A DNA stretch of 64,000 nt from NCBI RefSeq assembly GCF_034298135.1, contig NZ_CP139575.1:558001-622000 (forward strand), given 5' to 3'. The first letter of the stretch is position 1. Each line of letters begins with the position of its first letter. The position numbers were made by a program, and so were the translations under genes. A model generated the notes under the pieces. It made no database searches and was not told the origin of the DNA. It saw only the letters and a program-made list of their open reading frames with translations. Shown here piece after piece: positions 25,583-57,799 of the stretch. The stretch is from Lactobacillus acidophilus (GTDB lineage Bacteria > Bacillota > Bacilli > Lactobacillales > Lactobacillaceae).

Positions 25583-26476
25583 ATGTTAAATGGAATTATA
25601 GTAATTGATAAAGATAAAGGGATGACTAGTGCAGACGTTGTCTATCATTTGCGTCGTGCATTACATATTAGAAAAATTGGACACGCAGGAACTTTGGATC
25701 CTGAAGTTACAGGTGTTTTGCCAATTGCAATTGGTCAGGCAACCAAGTTAATTGAGTTGATGCATACTCGTCCTAAAAAGTATCAAGGAACAGGTTTATT
25801 TGGATATGCGACAGATTCTTATGATATTGATGGTAAAGTTTTAAAAGAAAAAAGATTGGTAATGCCATTTACTGTAGAAGAAATTCAGAGAGGAATGAAT
25901 ACTTTTAAAGGTAAAATCGAGCAAGTCCCACCAATTTATTCTGCTGTAAAAGTAAACGGAAAACACCTTTATGAGTATGCACGTGAAGGAATTAAAGTGG
26001 AACGTCCAAAACGTCAAGTAGAGATTTTTCAATATGATTTGTTAAATGATCCTAGTTTTGATAAAGAAAAAGGTCAAGAAAGCTTCGATTTTGAAATAAC
26101 TTGTAGCAAAGGGACGTATGTTAGATCATTAGTTAATGATTTAGGCGAAAAGCTAGATGAGCCAGCAGTTATGACATACTTGCGACGAGTGGCAAGTTCT
26201 GGATTTGATATTTCACAAGCTGTAAAATTAAGTGAAATTGAAGCAAATCCTGAAAAGGCTAGTGAATTGATTCAACCGATTGATGCCTTTTTTAAAGATT
26301 ATGAAACTATTGATTTACCTGAAGGTAAATGGCTTAAAGTAAAAAATGGTGCTGGCATTTCTTTGGAAACAAATGCAAAAAAAGTGGCATTACGGTACAA
26401 TGAAAAAGTTAAAGCGATTTATGAGAAAAAAGGAAAGATTTATCGTCCCAGCTTAATGCTGCTTCAAAATGAATAA
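25583..26476 (+). CDS. truB: tRNA pseudouridine(55) synthase TruB
   Basis: Makes the invariant pseudouridine 55 in the T loop of tRNAs. The catalytic Asp39 sits in [14 protein letters not shown] (34-47); the segments [11 protein letters not shown] and [15 protein letters not shown] follow. The length of 297 residues is normal. It pairs with ribF 20 bases downstream, the common Firmicute arrangement. Confidence 0.97.
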
Positions 26477-26496
26477 TCGAAACGAAGGAATTAGTT

Positions 26497-27426
26497 GTGA
26501 AAATCATTCATCTAACTTATCCAGTAAAGGAAAATATTTTAAATTCAAAAGTAGTTTTGGCTTTAGGTTTTTTTGATGGAGTTCATTTAGGACATCAACG
26601 CTTAATTACTCGAGCTAGGGAAATTGCTAATCAAAAAAATTTACCTGTAATTGTAATGACTTTTGATCGTCATCCTAAGGAAATATATGCGGATAAAAAG
26701 AATTTTAAATACTTAGAAACCTTAGATGAAAAGGCAGATAAAATGGCTAAATTAGGTGTTGATTATTTAGCTGTTATGCCATTTACAAAGGATTTTAGTC
26801 AAATAAGCGCGCAGAAGTTTGTTGACAACGTAATTGTTAAATTGAATGCTGACACTGTGGTTGCAGGATTTGATTATACATATGGTCCTAAAAATATAGC
26901 TAATATGGACAATCTGCCTAATTTTGCTAAAGGAAGATTTAACATTGTAGTTATGCCTAAGCAAGTTTTTGATGGGAAAAAAATTGGTTCTACTGAGATA
27001 CGTCAAGCTATCAAAGATGGGAAAATGGAATTAGCGTATGAATTAATGGGTCATCATTATGTAATGAGTGGCATAGTAGGGCATGGTAAAAGAAATGGTC
27101 ATAAACTTGGTTTTCCAACAGCTAATTTAGAGTGGGCTAACCATAAGGTTATTCCTAAAATAGGTGTTTATGCAACAAAAACTAAAGTTAATGGCAAATG
27201 GCATGAATCAATGACCAGTGTTGGTTATAATGTTACAATTGGTCAAAATAAACGTATTTATATCGAATCTAATATTTTTGACTTTGATGAAGATATTTAT
27301 GGTAAACCCATTGAAATTAAATGGTATAAGTATACTCGTGGAGAAATAAAGTTTGCTGGTTTAGATGAACTAAGAGAGCAACTTGAAAAGGATCAAGATG
27401 AAATTAAAGCATATTTTGCTAAATAA
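26497..27426 (+). CDS. ribF: bifunctional riboflavin kinase / FAD synthetase
   Basis: Converts riboflavin to FMN and FMN to FAD. The N-terminal adenylyltransferase domain shows LGFFDGVHLGHQRL and the IGSTEIRQAIKDG segment; the C-terminal kinase domain begins around GHGKRNGHKLGFPTANL and includes YESN-type text (IYIESNIFDF). Start GTG 26497. 309 residues, normal for the family. Confidence 0.96.
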   Translation: MKIIHLTYPVKENILNSKVVLALGFFDGVHLGHQRLITRAREIANQKNLPVIVMTFDRHPKEIYADKKNFKYLETLDEKADKMAKLGVDYLAVMPFTKDFSQISAQKFVDNVIVKLNADTVVAGFDYTYGPKNIANMDNLPNFAKGRFNIVVMPKQVFDGKKIGSTEIRQAIKDGKMELAYELMGHHYVMSGIVGHGKRNGHKLGFPTANLEWANHKVIPKIGVYATKTKVNGKWHESMTSVGYNVTIGQNKRIYIESNIFDFDEDIYGKPIEIKWYKYTRGEIKFAGLDELREQLEKDQDEIKAYFAK

Positions 27427-27428
27427 AG

Positions 27429-27457
27429 TTGAAAAATGATTTTATTCGTGATAATCT
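27429..27457 (+). promoter_or_regulatory. promoter of the ABC-F leader
   Basis: TTGAAA (27429-27434), 17 bases, TAATCT (27452-27457) with an extended TG. It would start RNA near 27464, giving a leader of about 210 bases. Confidence 0.6.
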
Positions 27458-27463
27458 TTTCTT

Positions 27464-27661
27464 AATCAATTGAAATTTACTGAAGAAAGAGGGATCGCCG
27501 TTGCGTCTGTAATCTTGCAAATGAAGCATAGTTGAACAATGTACTTTTTGGTAGATGGTGAGATTATGCACTTTTGGCAAGATTGACATAGACGGGATGC
27601 CTCTTTTTTGCGCATAAAAGTAGGGAGTCTATGCTTGTTAAAAGTGTGAACTCCCTTTTTT
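27464..27661 (+). promoter_or_regulatory. attenuator leader of the ABC-F gene, with two terminators and an antiterminator
   Basis: Terminator 1 is a long hairpin: AAAGAGG (27486-27492) with CCTCTTT (27600-27606), and inside it AATCTTGC (27511-27518) with GCAAGATT (27577-27584), ending in TTTTTT. Terminator 2 pairs GGGAGT (27623-27628) with ACTCCC (27650-27655), then TTTTTT. CATAGAC (27587-27593) can instead pair perfectly with GTCTATG (27627-27633), breaking both. A three-codon ORF lies within the first stem. This layout suggests induction by stalled ribosomes; the mechanism is inferred. Confidence 0.65.
27501..27512 (+). CDS. putative three-codon leader ORF (Met-Arg-Leu)
   Basis: TTG CGT CTG TAA at 27501-27512, with AAAGAGGGA 8 bases upstream acting as a good SD. 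It lies in the 5' strand of terminator 1, so a ribosome held here would open that stem. No coding-statistics test is possible at this length; support is the SD spacing and its place in the attenuator. Confidence 0.4.
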   Translation: MRL

Positions 27662-27676
27662 ACGTGAGGTGATTTC

Positions 27677-29188
27677 ATGAGCAATATTAAGATATCTAAT
27701 CTTTCATTTAGATATGAAGATGCTAGCGAAAATATTTTTAATGACTTGAATTTGAATTTGGATAGTAGCTGGAAGTTGGGCTTAGTAGGTAGAAACGGTA
27801 GAGGTAAGACTACATTTTTAAATTTACTAAGAAAGAAACTAAAAGGGATAGGTAAAATTGAAAGTAACTTGGATTTTTCATATTTTCCAATTACTATAAA
27901 AGATCTAAAAAATATTACTTTGTATGAATTACAAGAGCAGGTTAGCTTTGAACAATGGGAACTTGAGCGAGAAATGAATTTGTTAGCTGCAAATCCAGAT
28001 TTACTTTGGCAACCATTTAATACCTTGAGCGGTGGGGAACAAACTAAGATACTACTAGCTTTATCTTTTACTGATAGGGATGCATTTCCATTAATTGATG
28101 AGCCAACTAACCATTTGGATGAAGCCAGTCGTTTGCAAGTCGCACAATATTTGAAGAAGCATGATAAAGGCTATATCGTGGTAAGTCATGACCGTGATTT
28201 TTTGAATCAAGTGACAAACCATATTTTGGCGATTGAAAATACTGAGATTCATTTGTATCAAGGTAATTATGCCAGTTATGAGGATACGAAAAATAAAAGG
28301 GATCAATTTAACCGCGATAAAAATGAAAAGCTAAAAAAGGAAGTTAGACGTTTGAATGAAAGCCAATTACGTTTAAAGAACTTTTCTAGTAAGTCTGAAA
28401 ATAAGAAGAATGCCAAAGCACATCATAATGAAATTCATGCGGATATTGATAAAGGCTTTTTAAGCCATAAGTCAGCTAAAATTATGAAAAGATCTAAAAG
28501 TTTATCTAAAAGAATGGATAAAAACATTGAGGCTAAAAAAGGTTTGATGACTAACATCGAAGATACACCTGATCTAACGATGAATTTTCAGCCAAATTAT
28601 CATCATACCTTACTTGAAACGCAACAATTATCTTTGAAAATAGAAGATAAACCTCTCTTTAAAGATTTAAACATGGTTGTTAAAAATCAAGGCATTGTAT
28701 CTTTGGAGGGTAAAAATGGTACTGGTAAATCCACTTTTCTCAAATTAGTATTGGATCAAACAATTGACGTTTCATATCAAGGTAAATTAATTTTAACGAA
28801 TGGTTTGCAAATATCATATTTGCCACAAGATTTTACTGAATATACTGGTACATTAAAAGAATTCGCTGCAAAGCAAAAGATCTCCTATGAAGAACTGCTC
28901 AATAATTTAAATAAAATGGGTTTTCCAAGAGAAAGCTTTAATACTAAAATTGAAGAAATGAGTATGGGTCAACAAAAACGTGTCGCTTTAGCTAAGTCAT
29001 TAGTAGAACCTGCTGATTTATATTTGTGGGATGAGCCTGCAAATTACCTAGATGTGTTTAATCAAGACCAATTGATTAATTTGTTAAAGCAAGTTCAACC
29101 AGCGATGATTTTAGTTGAACATGATGAATACTTTATTGAACGAGTAGCTAATCAAAGAATTACTTTAAACTTGAAGAAAAAAGTTTAA
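27677..29188 (+). CDS. Lsa-type ABC-F ribosomal protection protein
   Basis: Two ATPase domains and no membrane segment, 503 residues. NBD1: Walker A GRNGRGKTT at 38-46, signature LSGGEQTK, Walker B LIDEPTNHLD. A charged linker follows, then NBD2 with GKNGTGKST, MSMGQQKR and LWDEPANYLD. Text such as FEQWELERE and EHDEYFIERV closely matches the Lsa family, which removes lincosamides, streptogramin A and pleuromutilins from the ribosome. I infer the same role, though a housekeeping ABC-F role cannot be excluded. The SD GAGGTGA lies just past terminator 2 of the leader. Confidence 0.85.
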   Translation: MSNIKISNLSFRYEDASENIFNDLNLNLDSSWKLGLVGRNGRGKTTFLNLLRKKLKGIGKIESNLDFSYFPITIKDLKNITLYELQEQVSFEQWELEREMNLLAANPDLLWQPFNTLSGGEQTKILLALSFTDRDAFPLIDEPTNHLDEASRLQVAQYLKKHDKGYIVVSHDRDFLNQVTNHILAIENTEIHLYQGNYASYEDTKNKRDQFNRDKNEKLKKEVRRLNESQLRLKNFSSKSENKKNAKAHHNEIHADIDKGFLSHKSAKIMKRSKSLSKRMDKNIEAKKGLMTNIEDTPDLTMNFQPNYHHTLLETQQLSLKIEDKPLFKDLNMVVKNQGIVSLEGKNGTGKSTFLKLVLDQTIDVSYQGKLILTNGLQISYLPQDFTEYTGTLKEFAAKQKISYEELLNNLNKMGFPRESFNTKIEEMSMGQQKRVALAKSLVEPADLYLWDEPANYLDVFNQDQLINLLKQVQPAMILVEHDEYFIERVANQRITLNLKKKV

Positions 29189-29194
29189 AATAAA

Positions 29195-29221
29195 TTAGCA
29201 CTCAGGTTGCATTATTGCTAA
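29195..29221 (+). promoter_or_regulatory. CIRCE-like operator 1 (degenerate)
   Basis: TTAGCACTC, 9 bases, TATTGCTAA: left arm exact, right arm 7 of 9 to the CIRCE consensus bound by HrcA. It overlaps the -35 of the hrcA promoter. Confidence 0.7.
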
Positions 29222-29234
29222 TTTCTAGTATAAT
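29207..29234 (+). promoter_or_regulatory. promoter of hrcA-grpE-dnaK-dnaJ
   Basis: TTGCAT (29207-29212), 16 bases, TATAAT (29229-29234). It sits between the two CIRCE elements. Confidence 0.65.
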
Positions 29235-29242
29235 ATAATCTG

Positions 29243-29269
29243 TTAGCACCTGATAGATGTGAGTGCTAA
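29243..29269 (+). promoter_or_regulatory. CIRCE operator 2
   Basis: TTAGCACCT, 9 bases, GAGTGCTAA: right arm exact and left arm 8 of 9 to consensus, with the standard 9-base spacer, 18 bases before hrcA. HrcA represses here and releases on heat stress. Confidence 0.92.
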
Positions 29270-29287
29270 AAGTGAGGGCGATATATA

Positions 29288-30337
29288 ATGTTGACCGAAC
29301 GTCAAGAACTTATTTTAAAAACGATAATTATGGACTTCACACAGACACATGAACCAGTTGGTTCTAAGACAGTGATGAATCAGTTGCCAATCAAAGTATC
29401 AAGTGCGACTATTCGCAATGAAATGGCAGTTCTAGAAGATCAGGGGCTAATTGAAAAAACTCACTCTTCTAGTGGCCGTATTCCTTCAAGTGAAGGATAT
29501 CGCTATTATCTTGATAACTTGGTTGAGCCGCTTAAATTACCGGAGTCCGTTTATAATACAATTGGAAGTCAACTAGATCGACCTTTTCATCAGGTAAACG
29601 AAATTGTCCAAGAAGCGGCAAGAATTTTATCAGATTTAACCAATTATACTGCATTTGCTGAAGGACCTGAGAAACGTGACGTTAAAGTTACAGGCTTTAG
29701 AATTGTTCCATTATCCTCAAGACAGGTAATGGCAATTCTGGTCACAAGTGATGGCAATGTTCAGAACCAGGTTTATGCTTTACCTCATAATATTTATGGG
29801 GAAGAAATTGAAAAAGCTGTTCATATGATTAATGATCAGTTAGTTGGTAAGAGTTTAAACGAAATAAATGTTTCTTTACTTAGTGAACTTGCTAAAAGTG
29901 AGCTAGGCGGAGAACATGTGACTGAGCTGCTTAGTTTAGTTGAAGACGTTTTAAAAGATGCTGCGAGTGAGCAGATGTATGTTGATGGACAAATAAATCT
30001 ATTAAATAATACATCTGAGCATAATGTGAAGGATATTCGTTCACTTTATGAATTGATCGATCATGATAATTTGTTTTCTAATTTGATGGATAGTAAAGCA
30101 GATTCCAAAGATAAAAATTATCCAATTAAAGTTAAATTAGGATCAGAATTACCAAATGATTTATTAAAAAATTACAGTTTGCTGACTGCTGAATATAATG
30201 TTGGTTCTCATGGTAAAGGGACAATTGCTTTATTAGGTCCAACTAACATGCCATATTCGCAGATGATCGGACTTCTAGAATATTTCAGAAATGAATTAGC
30301 TAAGAAGTTACTTGATTATTACGGCAAATTTCAATAG
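29288..30337 (+). CDS. hrcA: heat-inducible transcription repressor HrcA
   Basis: Represses class I heat-shock genes through CIRCE and is kept active by GroEL. The 349-residue protein has the N-terminal winged helix ([30 protein letters not shown]) and the GAF-like dimerisation part. It is the first gene of the operon and lies directly under two CIRCE elements, so it controls itself and the DnaK system. Confidence 0.97.
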
Positions 30338-57511: not shown

Positions 57512-57799
57512 CACCATGAAAAAAGACGTCCCATAAGCATATTGCTTAAAGGACGCCTTTTTGCGTGTTACCACCTTTTTTTACATTATTATTGCTAATA
57601 ATGCCTTACGCGTACATGAAAAAATCAGATACGTTGGTGCAGTAACGGGCACTCCCGACTAAAACTTCTTGTGGTCGCCTTAGTCACTCATAGATTACTT
57701 TCAATTGTCTTAATTTATACCTGCTTTCACTATCTCAGGCTCGCTGAATAAATCGAAGACAATCTACTCTTCTATTCATAGTGTGTAAAAATCTTGTTG
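57512..57799 (-). promoter_or_regulatory. T-box riboswitch of brnQ
   Basis: On the minus strand: stem I (TAGATT with AATCTA, GTCTT with AAGAC), a distal loop with AGCGAGCC, the T-box bulge AAGGTGGTAACACGC (around 57563-57577) and a terminator at 57518-57562 (GGCGTCC with GGACGTC, one wobble) ending in TTTTTT. The specifier loop between AAGAC and AATCTA reads AATTGAAAGT; ATT (57703-57705, Ile) is the best codon candidate. Matches brnQ function. Confidence 0.85.

Follow-up and report, generated by a model that had tools for sequence, protein, structure and literature searches.

The leader upstream of an ABC-F gene in Lactobacillus acidophilus is, in our assessment, highly likely to be a transcription attenuator that is controlled by the ribosome and has two check points. 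It lies between the ribF gene (26497-27426) and the ABC-F gene (27677-29188) of the analysed window, a stretch of 64,000 nucleotides from a 1.98-Mb genome. Two tandem intrinsic terminators, a three-codon open reading frame (uORF1) embedded in the 5' arm of the first one, and an antiterminator overlapping the second can be distinguished. The original prediction had named the two terminators and the helix CATAGAC (27587-27593) with GTCTATG (27627-27633), and all of them were located at these positions; the general anatomy, comprising two terminators in tandem, a short ORF within the strand needed by terminator 1, and an Lsa-like ABC-F gene downstream, is supported by the sequence and by comparison. 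In kind, the proposed regulation is very probably correct. The sequences and folding simulations suggest a division of labour in which terminator 1 is overcome by the ribosome, and the antiterminator acts on terminator 2 only.

The ABC-F gene is on the forward strand and encodes a protein of 503 aa of the ribosomal-protection type, which is most like Lsa(A) according to NCBIfam and PDB matches. The protein scores 452.6 bits against the NCBIfam model NF000355 (ribosomal-protection-like ABC-F, curated cut-off 380). The best-scoring family is NF000167 (Lsa), but the score of 616.7 bits is below its curated cut-off of 750; the closest solved structure is Lsa(A) (PDB 7nhk, E 4.3e-147). Thus, the gene, predicted as Lsa-type, can be called Lsa-like, whereas these scores do not support its assignment to Lsa proper. 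Named relatives of the protein were found in Lactobacillus kitasatonis (79% identity), L. agrestimuris, L. kefiranofaciens, and L. xujianguonis. The Shine-Dalgarno sequence of the gene, GAGGTG (27666-27671, forward strand), is unpaired in the predicted fold. The hrcA and grpE genes come next; their names, like that of ribF, were assigned by reading the translations. Before hrcA (29195-29269), TTAGCACTC and then TTAGCAC-n11-GAGTGCTAA are located, which we take to resemble CIRCE operators. Elsewhere in the window, a T-box leader occupies positions 57546-57788 of the minus strand (112.9 bits).

The leader probably has its own promoter, TTGAAA ... TGATAATCT (27429-27457, forward strand), as suggested by a recurring -10-like element: the extended -10-like motif TGnTAnnnT, judged by eye, recurs at the promoter position in 44 leaders of the genus. 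From the sequence, the transcript is expected to start near 27460-27468. At this presumed start, the sequence ATCAATTGAAATT (27465-27477) lies just 3' of the extended -10-like motif; of the 44 genus leaders, 30 contain CAATTGAAAT after the motif, in the 75 nt preceding uORF1.

ABC-F homologues (E <= 1e-90) were detected in 204 of the 397 Lactobacillaceae genomes searched. The genus yielded 50 leads; one truncated locus, three loci without the element, and three duplicates were dropped, giving 43 leaders. Thirty of these formed the covariation alignment (the 13 others were near-duplicates or hard to align), and 25 were used to build R1, an RNA model spanning uORF1 to terminator 1. The three loci without a recognisable leader (L029, L031, and L039) contain close ABC-F homologues with 68-70% identity, which may be constitutive or otherwise controlled. 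Beyond the automatic loci, 60 family leaders were hand-picked for spread among the matches listed; five family loci were without a located gene start.

The leader is predicted to fold with an energy of -73.8 kcal/mol, compared to -44.6 +/- 4.0 kcal/mol for 200 dinucleotide shuffles, none of which reached this value (z = -7.4). A long stem, P1 (27485-27609, forward strand), forms terminator 1 and would also serve as the anti-antiterminator; the fold energy of this element is -50.8 kcal/mol (z = -7.4). The 5' arm of P1 spans 27485-27518, the 3' arm spans 27577-27607, and the T-run of terminator 1 is located at 27604-27609. P1 encloses an inner hairpin GCATAGTT/GATTATGC (27526-27569, forward strand), the 3' arm of which contains the start codon of a second mini-ORF, uORF2; 95.4% of its cells are paired in the 30 genus leaders, with little covariation. 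Terminator 2 (27622-27661, forward strand) consists of AGGGAGT (27622-27628) pairing with ACTCCCT (27650-27656), followed by a T-run extending to 27661.

Covariation had been predicted in three helices, and it was found for terminator 2: 98.8% of the cells are paired in the 30 genus leaders, with 23 double-sided changes versus 7.4 +/- 2.7 in shuffles, a value reached by none of 500 shuffles. The 7-bp helix CATAGAC/GTCTATG did not show it, being matched by 263 of 500 shuffles, and P1 taken in its entirety covaries weakly (76.0% of cells paired versus 75.3% in shuffles, reached by 57 of 500; the covariation score was reached by 18 of 500 shuffles, and the number of further pair types by 477 of 500). 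The inner part of P1 is 88.7% paired, and the outer part is affected by length changes in the alignment. Alignment-free pairing of the uORF1 region with its own downstream region gave a mean of -31.2 kcal/mol versus -20.8 kcal/mol with foreign regions, a lenient comparison in which relatives are included; the own partner was among the best 5% in 64 of 108 leaders. A simple terminator scan of positions 26000-30000 listed neither terminator and found one candidate versus 1.8 expected from shuffles. This can be explained, in our reading, by interrupted stems and by the limit of the scan, which accepts only loops of 3-8 nt.

The sensor is most likely uORF1 (TTG CGT CTG TAA, fMet-Arg-Leu-stop; 27501-27512, forward strand), located in the 5' arm of terminator 1 and distinguished by the conservation of codon 2 and of the stop. 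Its Shine-Dalgarno sequence, GAAAGAGGG (27485-27493, forward strand), is at the same time the outer 5' arm of terminator 1. With a duplex energy of -6.3, uORF1 ranks second among the mini-ORFs of the window, after one situated inside ribF (-6.4). The original prediction had placed a short ORF on the strand of terminator 1; such an ORF is indeed present and conserved, but the prediction had not named it. The leaders of relatives contain a constant block, GAAAGAAGG-n(6-7)-TTG-CGT-CTT-TAA, which is a Shine-Dalgarno sequence with a three-codon ORF encoding M-R-L-stop or M-R-F-stop. The peptides encoded by 43 distinct genus leaders are MRL (18), MRF (16), MRN (3), MRSLIF (2), and MRI, MLL, MRYLILQ, and MR (one each). 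Arginine is thus the second residue in 42 of them, with M-L-L as the exception; the start codon is TTG in 40 leaders, ATG in two, and GTG in one, and the stop codon is always TAA.

Similar features can be noted throughout the family, where the counts come from related sequences and do not represent independent events. A mini-ORF with a Shine-Dalgarno energy of -5 or lower is present in 95 of 114 distinct family leaders versus 14-30 of 114 in each of ten shuffles. When the ORF was picked by Shine-Dalgarno strength alone, lysine or arginine was second in 70 of 95 cases versus 35 of 224 in shuffles, and 13 others had histidine, which corresponds to uORF2. With a position filter, set after uORF2 was seen to compete, uORF1 was called in 108 of the 114 leaders (six had no call) and had arginine or lysine at codon 2 in 93 of these 108, the residue itself playing no part in the picking of the ORF. 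The codons used are CGT (44), AAG (21), AGA (15), AAA (11), and CGC (2). TTG is the start codon in 95 of the 108 calls, and 82 of the 108 ORFs have three codons. A call was obtained for 19 of the 22 sampled genera, 17 of which include at least one leader with an M-[R/K] uORF. Since arginine is encoded by CGT, CGC, and AGA and is exchanged for lysine, the peptide or its charge, and not the RNA alone, seems to be under selection.

These conserved positions also bear on the idea that the leader is a riboswitch that binds a ligand or a protein independently of the ribosome. Such a large structured 5' element would suit a riboswitch; however, the Shine-Dalgarno sequence, the start, the basic codon 2, and the stop of uORF1 rank among its best conserved positions, and no match to Rfam 15 was found at the gathering score. 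Up to E = 5, there were two matches to the leader (E 1.1 and 2), both far under the gathering scores. We regard a riboswitch as extremely improbable.

The exclusive helix is longer than originally noted: CATAGAC/GTCTATG is followed, after a 5-nt bulge, by CACTTTTGGCAAG (27569-27581) pairing with CTTGTTAAAAGTG (27634-27646), which gives 20 bp in total. The 5' arm of this antiterminator (27569-27593, comprising 27569-27581 and 27587-27593; forward strand) was delimited by its energy relative to shuffles and by covariation, and the 3' arm (27627-27646, forward strand), which terminator 2 also uses in its 5' half, by the pairing probability in simulation. The energy of the helix is -25.5 kcal/mol versus -13.0 +/- 2.8 kcal/mol for 2000 shuffled stretch pairs, none of which reached it (the strongest was -24.6). 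In the 30 genus leaders, 95.9% of the cells of the 13-bp core are paired, with 12 double-sided changes versus 2.7 +/- 1.4 in shuffles (0 of 500 reached this number). As for the 7-bp helix, 72.2% of its cells are paired, compared to 72.0% in shuffled columns and 23-46% with slid partners; some pairing is kept without covariation. It was rejected as the conserved antiterminator, since it does not covary beyond shuffles and the 13 bp that had been missed are better conserved.

The original prediction that one antiterminator cancels both terminators did not hold, because the 3' arm of the antiterminator is transcribed after the T-run of terminator 1. Therefore, only the ribosome can spare terminator 1. 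The effect of a ribosome on uORF1 was modelled by blocking its footprint in folding simulations. In the fold of the window, a footprint from -15 to +16 abolished the pairing of the outer stem in terminator 1 (0.86 without the block, 0 with it); a narrower footprint (-12 to +12) left 0.03-0.05 in the outer stem, with the inner P1 stem still at 0.54-0.60. With uORF1 covered, the pairing of terminator 1 dropped to less than 0.3 in 55 of the 61 leaders chosen, the remaining six showing 0.37-0.56; when a loop stretch of the same size was covered as a control, terminator 1 stayed in place in all 61. In a wider automatic set, terminator 1 was lost in 62 of 80 leaders. To some extent, this loss follows from the design of the test, as uORF1 sits within the arm of terminator 1. 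The ORFs at 27539 (MYFLVDGEIMHFWQD) and 27566 were rejected as sensors of terminator 1, since blocking them keeps the outer stem at 0.86.

When uORF1 is blocked in the simulation, the 3' arm of P1 loses its pairing, and the pairing probability of the antiterminator rises to 0.92-0.995 at transcript ends 27646-27654, versus 0 when uORF1 is free. Among the 30 genus leaders, covering uORF1 allows the antiterminator to form in 28, compared to two with uORF1 free; the exceptions are L026 and L049, which form it even when free, and L021 and L048, which fail to form it when blocked. In the equilibrium fold with uORF1 blocked, terminator 2 (0.95) wins over the antiterminator (0.03) as soon as the 3' arm of the terminator has been fully synthesised. 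The model therefore needs co-transcriptional kinetics, that is, the order of synthesis.

The elements of the leader and their conservation are supported by sequence and comparison, and the folding simulations point to their mutual exclusion. We infer from them that uORF1 is translated, that drugs stall the ribosome there, that termination actually takes place, and which drugs are the inducers. The following sequence of events can be proposed. Without a drug, ribosomes would complete uORF1 (M-R-L-stop) and depart, the arms of P1 would pair, and the polymerase would be released at terminator 1. A polymerase slipping past it would still make terminator 2, the 5' arm of the antiterminator being tied up in P1. 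Drugs that cause ribosomes to stall at initiation or soon after it, with lincosamides, pleuromutilins, and streptogramin A being expected, would hold the ribosome on uORF1. The stalled ribosome would cover the 5' arm of P1, and therefore terminator 1 could not form. The freed region 27569-27593 would pair with 27627-27646 as soon as the latter is transcribed, ahead of the complete terminator 2, and the ABC-F gene would be read. Leuconostoc belongs to the same family as Lactobacillus. In Leuconostoc pseudomesenteroides, the level of lsaA RNA is reported to increase with clindamycin and with quinupristin-dalfopristin (PMC7996808), which fits a drug-responsive leader.

The second mini-ORF, uORF2 (ATG CAC TTT TGG CAA GAT TGA, encoding MHFWQD; 27566-27586, forward strand), reads M-H-F-stop in many relatives, and in the genus the 5' arm of the antiterminator begins within its ATG/GTG-CAC-TTT. 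An NTG start is present in all 30 genus leaders, and a Shine-Dalgarno energy of -4 or lower in 26 of the 30, versus a mean of 2.4 (maximum 6) in shuffled loops; the window has one of the four weaker sites (-3.4). The position of the stop codon of uORF2 varies among the genus leaders. The simple model does not account for stalling at uORF2, where the ribosome would sit on the antiterminator arm. Since such a ribosome would block the antiterminator, uORF2 should oppose induction. A speculative and on the whole unlikely extension is a two-input gate, in which an occupied uORF1 spares terminator 1, and an empty uORF2, which leaves the 5' arm of the antiterminator free, spares terminator 2 as well. 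The role of uORF2 would then be to curb leaky read-through or to shut the gene off at high drug levels, resulting in a band-pass antibiotic response.

A search with R1 found matches (E <= 0.001) in 39 of 75 genus genomes; R1 is mostly a sequence profile, as RNAalifold assigned only 9 pairs to it. The search gave 57 rows, seven of which are antisense images of listed sites and 50 are sense sites. By coordinates, 46 of these 50 are located just upstream of an ABC-F match, two broken copies (G004 and G025:C76) included; the other four are found at a contig end, before an interrupted ABC-F gene, in a relic, and as a weak match. No other gene class was found behind the R1 sites in the 75 genus genomes, and the idea that this leader also controls other genes was rejected. 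The relic (L174, 1700-1990, genome G038) is located between ribF and hrcA, where the ABC-F gene is gone; thus, the leader can outlive its gene.

The same data bear on whether the terminators could be unregulated and merely end the transcription of the upstream ribF operon. According to a motif test, a ribF-like gene precedes 17 of 43 genus leaders, including that of the window, but the other 26 have no ribF-like motif upstream, and a terminator serving ribF only was rejected on this ground. In addition, the element accompanies the ABC-F gene, second copies in one genome included, and such a function would leave uORF1 and the antiterminator without a role. This explanation is very improbable.

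The terminators were counted by an automatic criterion. Among 44 genus leaders, 37 have both, four have terminator 2 only, and three have terminator 1 only, where at least two of the calls of both (L053 and L055) are doubtful, with the T-tract inside the loop. Among 56 leaders of other genera, 27 have terminator 1 only, 15 have terminator 2 only, 13 have both, and one has none, some of these calls being similarly doubtful. Fourteen leaders with a missing or apparently wrong uORF1 call were set aside, two of which contain MRI and MKN candidates with weaker Shine-Dalgarno sequences. Tandem terminators are a habit of the genus, surrounded by one-terminator forms of both sorts.

This distribution is relevant to a simpler scheme, in which terminator 2 alone regulates the gene, as SL-3 does in vmlR, and terminator 1 is a weakly terminating by-product of the long anti-antiterminator stem, which ends in U residues by chance. 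In favour of this scheme, a hairpin of over 100 nt such as terminator 1 can be expected to form slowly, and terminator 2 is the sole terminator in four of the 44 leaders of the genus and in 15 of the 56 from other genera. However, both terminators are kept in 37 of 44 genus leaders by the same criterion, and terminator 1 is the only one in 30 of 100 classified leaders (three in the genus and 27 in other genera), where it would act alone. We see regulation by terminator 2 alone as a minor, though not negligible, possibility. An attenuator with two check points, which we prefer, has a difficulty of its own: among 31 tested leaders with terminator 1, of which 27 are without terminator 2, an antiterminator-like helix that joins the regions on either side of terminator 1 is kept and is somewhat better than for foreign pairs (-22.7 versus -17.4; 15 of the 31 leaders have their own partner among the best 10%), and in leaders without terminator 2 this helix sits outside the model.

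The retention of that helix could point to a translation attenuator or an mRNA-stability switch, in which the helix exchange acts mainly on the ABC-F mRNA after transcription; cplR and vmlR are described as joining transcription and translation control (PMC10201436, PMC9226507). On the other hand, both terminators end in T-runs, and the absence of pairing at the Shine-Dalgarno sequence of the ABC-F gene in the predicted fold also argues against it. Such control is improbable as the main mode of action, and attenuation of transcription at two check points is the reading that we retain.

The leader looks to be of the known vmlR/cplR kind, and what looks new is the two-terminator, two-step layout, common in the genus. 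The string "Lactobac" is absent from the main texts on vmlR (PMC9226507), cplR (PMC10201436), and uORF4u, and a literature search, covering mostly titles and abstracts, found no description of an ABC-F leader in Lactobacillaceae or of tandem terminators of this type. ABC-F leaders controlled by uORFs would thereby be extended to a broad set of bacteria from food and the gut. The forms with terminator 1 only, with terminator 2 only, and with both make up a natural series on the gain and loss of attenuator check points. Why uORFs responding to lincosamides and pleuromutilins have preferred sequences, while stalling by these drugs is thought to depend little on context, is presented as an open question in PMC10201436, and the basic second residue, encoded by different codons, is a peptide-level signal for it. 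Inducible resistance that is silent without a drug would be relevant when the safety of starter and probiotic strains is assessed.

Control of attenuation by ribosomes on very small uORFs is established for vmlR (PMC9226507), cplR, vmlR2, and lsaA (PMC10201436), are5sc (PMC12421871), msrD (PMC10314930), and hflXr (PMC6310831); the comparison made here draws on selected sections of these papers. As in the MsrDL and HflXr systems, a stalled ribosome would prevent the formation of an intrinsic terminator (PMC10314930, PMC6310831). The macrolide leaders, which include MsrDL with MYLIFM and MefAL, ErmDL, and HflXr with the R/K-x-R/K motif, are described as arresting peptide-specifically (PMC10314930, PMC6310831), whereas uORF1 resembles neither MYLIFM nor R/K-x-R/K; the latter motif is absent from all 108 uORF1 peptides. 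Streptomyces are5sc shares with the Lactobacillus leaders the tripeptide uORFs (MLV and MRS), the TTG start (of MLV), and an overlapping pair of uORFs, but it belongs to unrelated bacteria, and the cited text reports translation for the MLV uORF only (PMC12421871). An are5sc-like arrangement can be noted in four family leaders (L064, L065, L070, and L072), where GTG-CGT-TGA and TTG-AGA-AAC-TAA overlap on one Shine-Dalgarno sequence. Among the systems compared here, enterococcal lsaA represents the closest protein family with a reported uORF; the uORF consensus given for it, MAGN (PMC10201436), differs from M-R-L when the peptides alone are compared, and MAGN was found at uORF1 in none of the 43 genus leaders, that of the window being M-R-L.

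Clostridial cplR is similar in having a uORF of three codons with arginine second (MR[I/M]) and in attenuating transcription; unlike in the Lactobacillus leader, its terminator hairpin also hides the Shine-Dalgarno sequence of the gene, and one terminator is described (PMC10201436). Three features of the vmlR/cplR type were found in the leader studied here: a very short uORF with its own Shine-Dalgarno sequence near the 5' end, the location of this uORF inside the anti-antiterminator hairpin (P1 arm 27485-27518), and a 20-bp antiterminator that overlaps both this hairpin and an intrinsic terminator, contains a covarying core, and switches in simulation. The vmlR leader of Bacillus subtilis consists of the uORF MIN, the anti-antiterminator SL-1, an antiterminator, and the terminator SL-3 (PMC9226507). 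The likeness lies in the three-codon uORF within the anti-antiterminator hairpin, in the overlap of the antiterminator with the downstream terminator, and in the control of an ABC-F gene, which in the case of vmlR acts against lincosamides, pleuromutilins, and streptogramin A (PMC9226507). The differences from vmlR as described are the uORF itself, which is M-R-L with a TTG start instead of MIN, and M-[R/K]-x in most of the family; the second mini-ORF on the antiterminator arm, together with the absence of a predicted hairpin sequestering the Shine-Dalgarno sequence; and the anti-antiterminator stem, which in Lactobacillus itself ends as an intrinsic terminator and so provides two check points.
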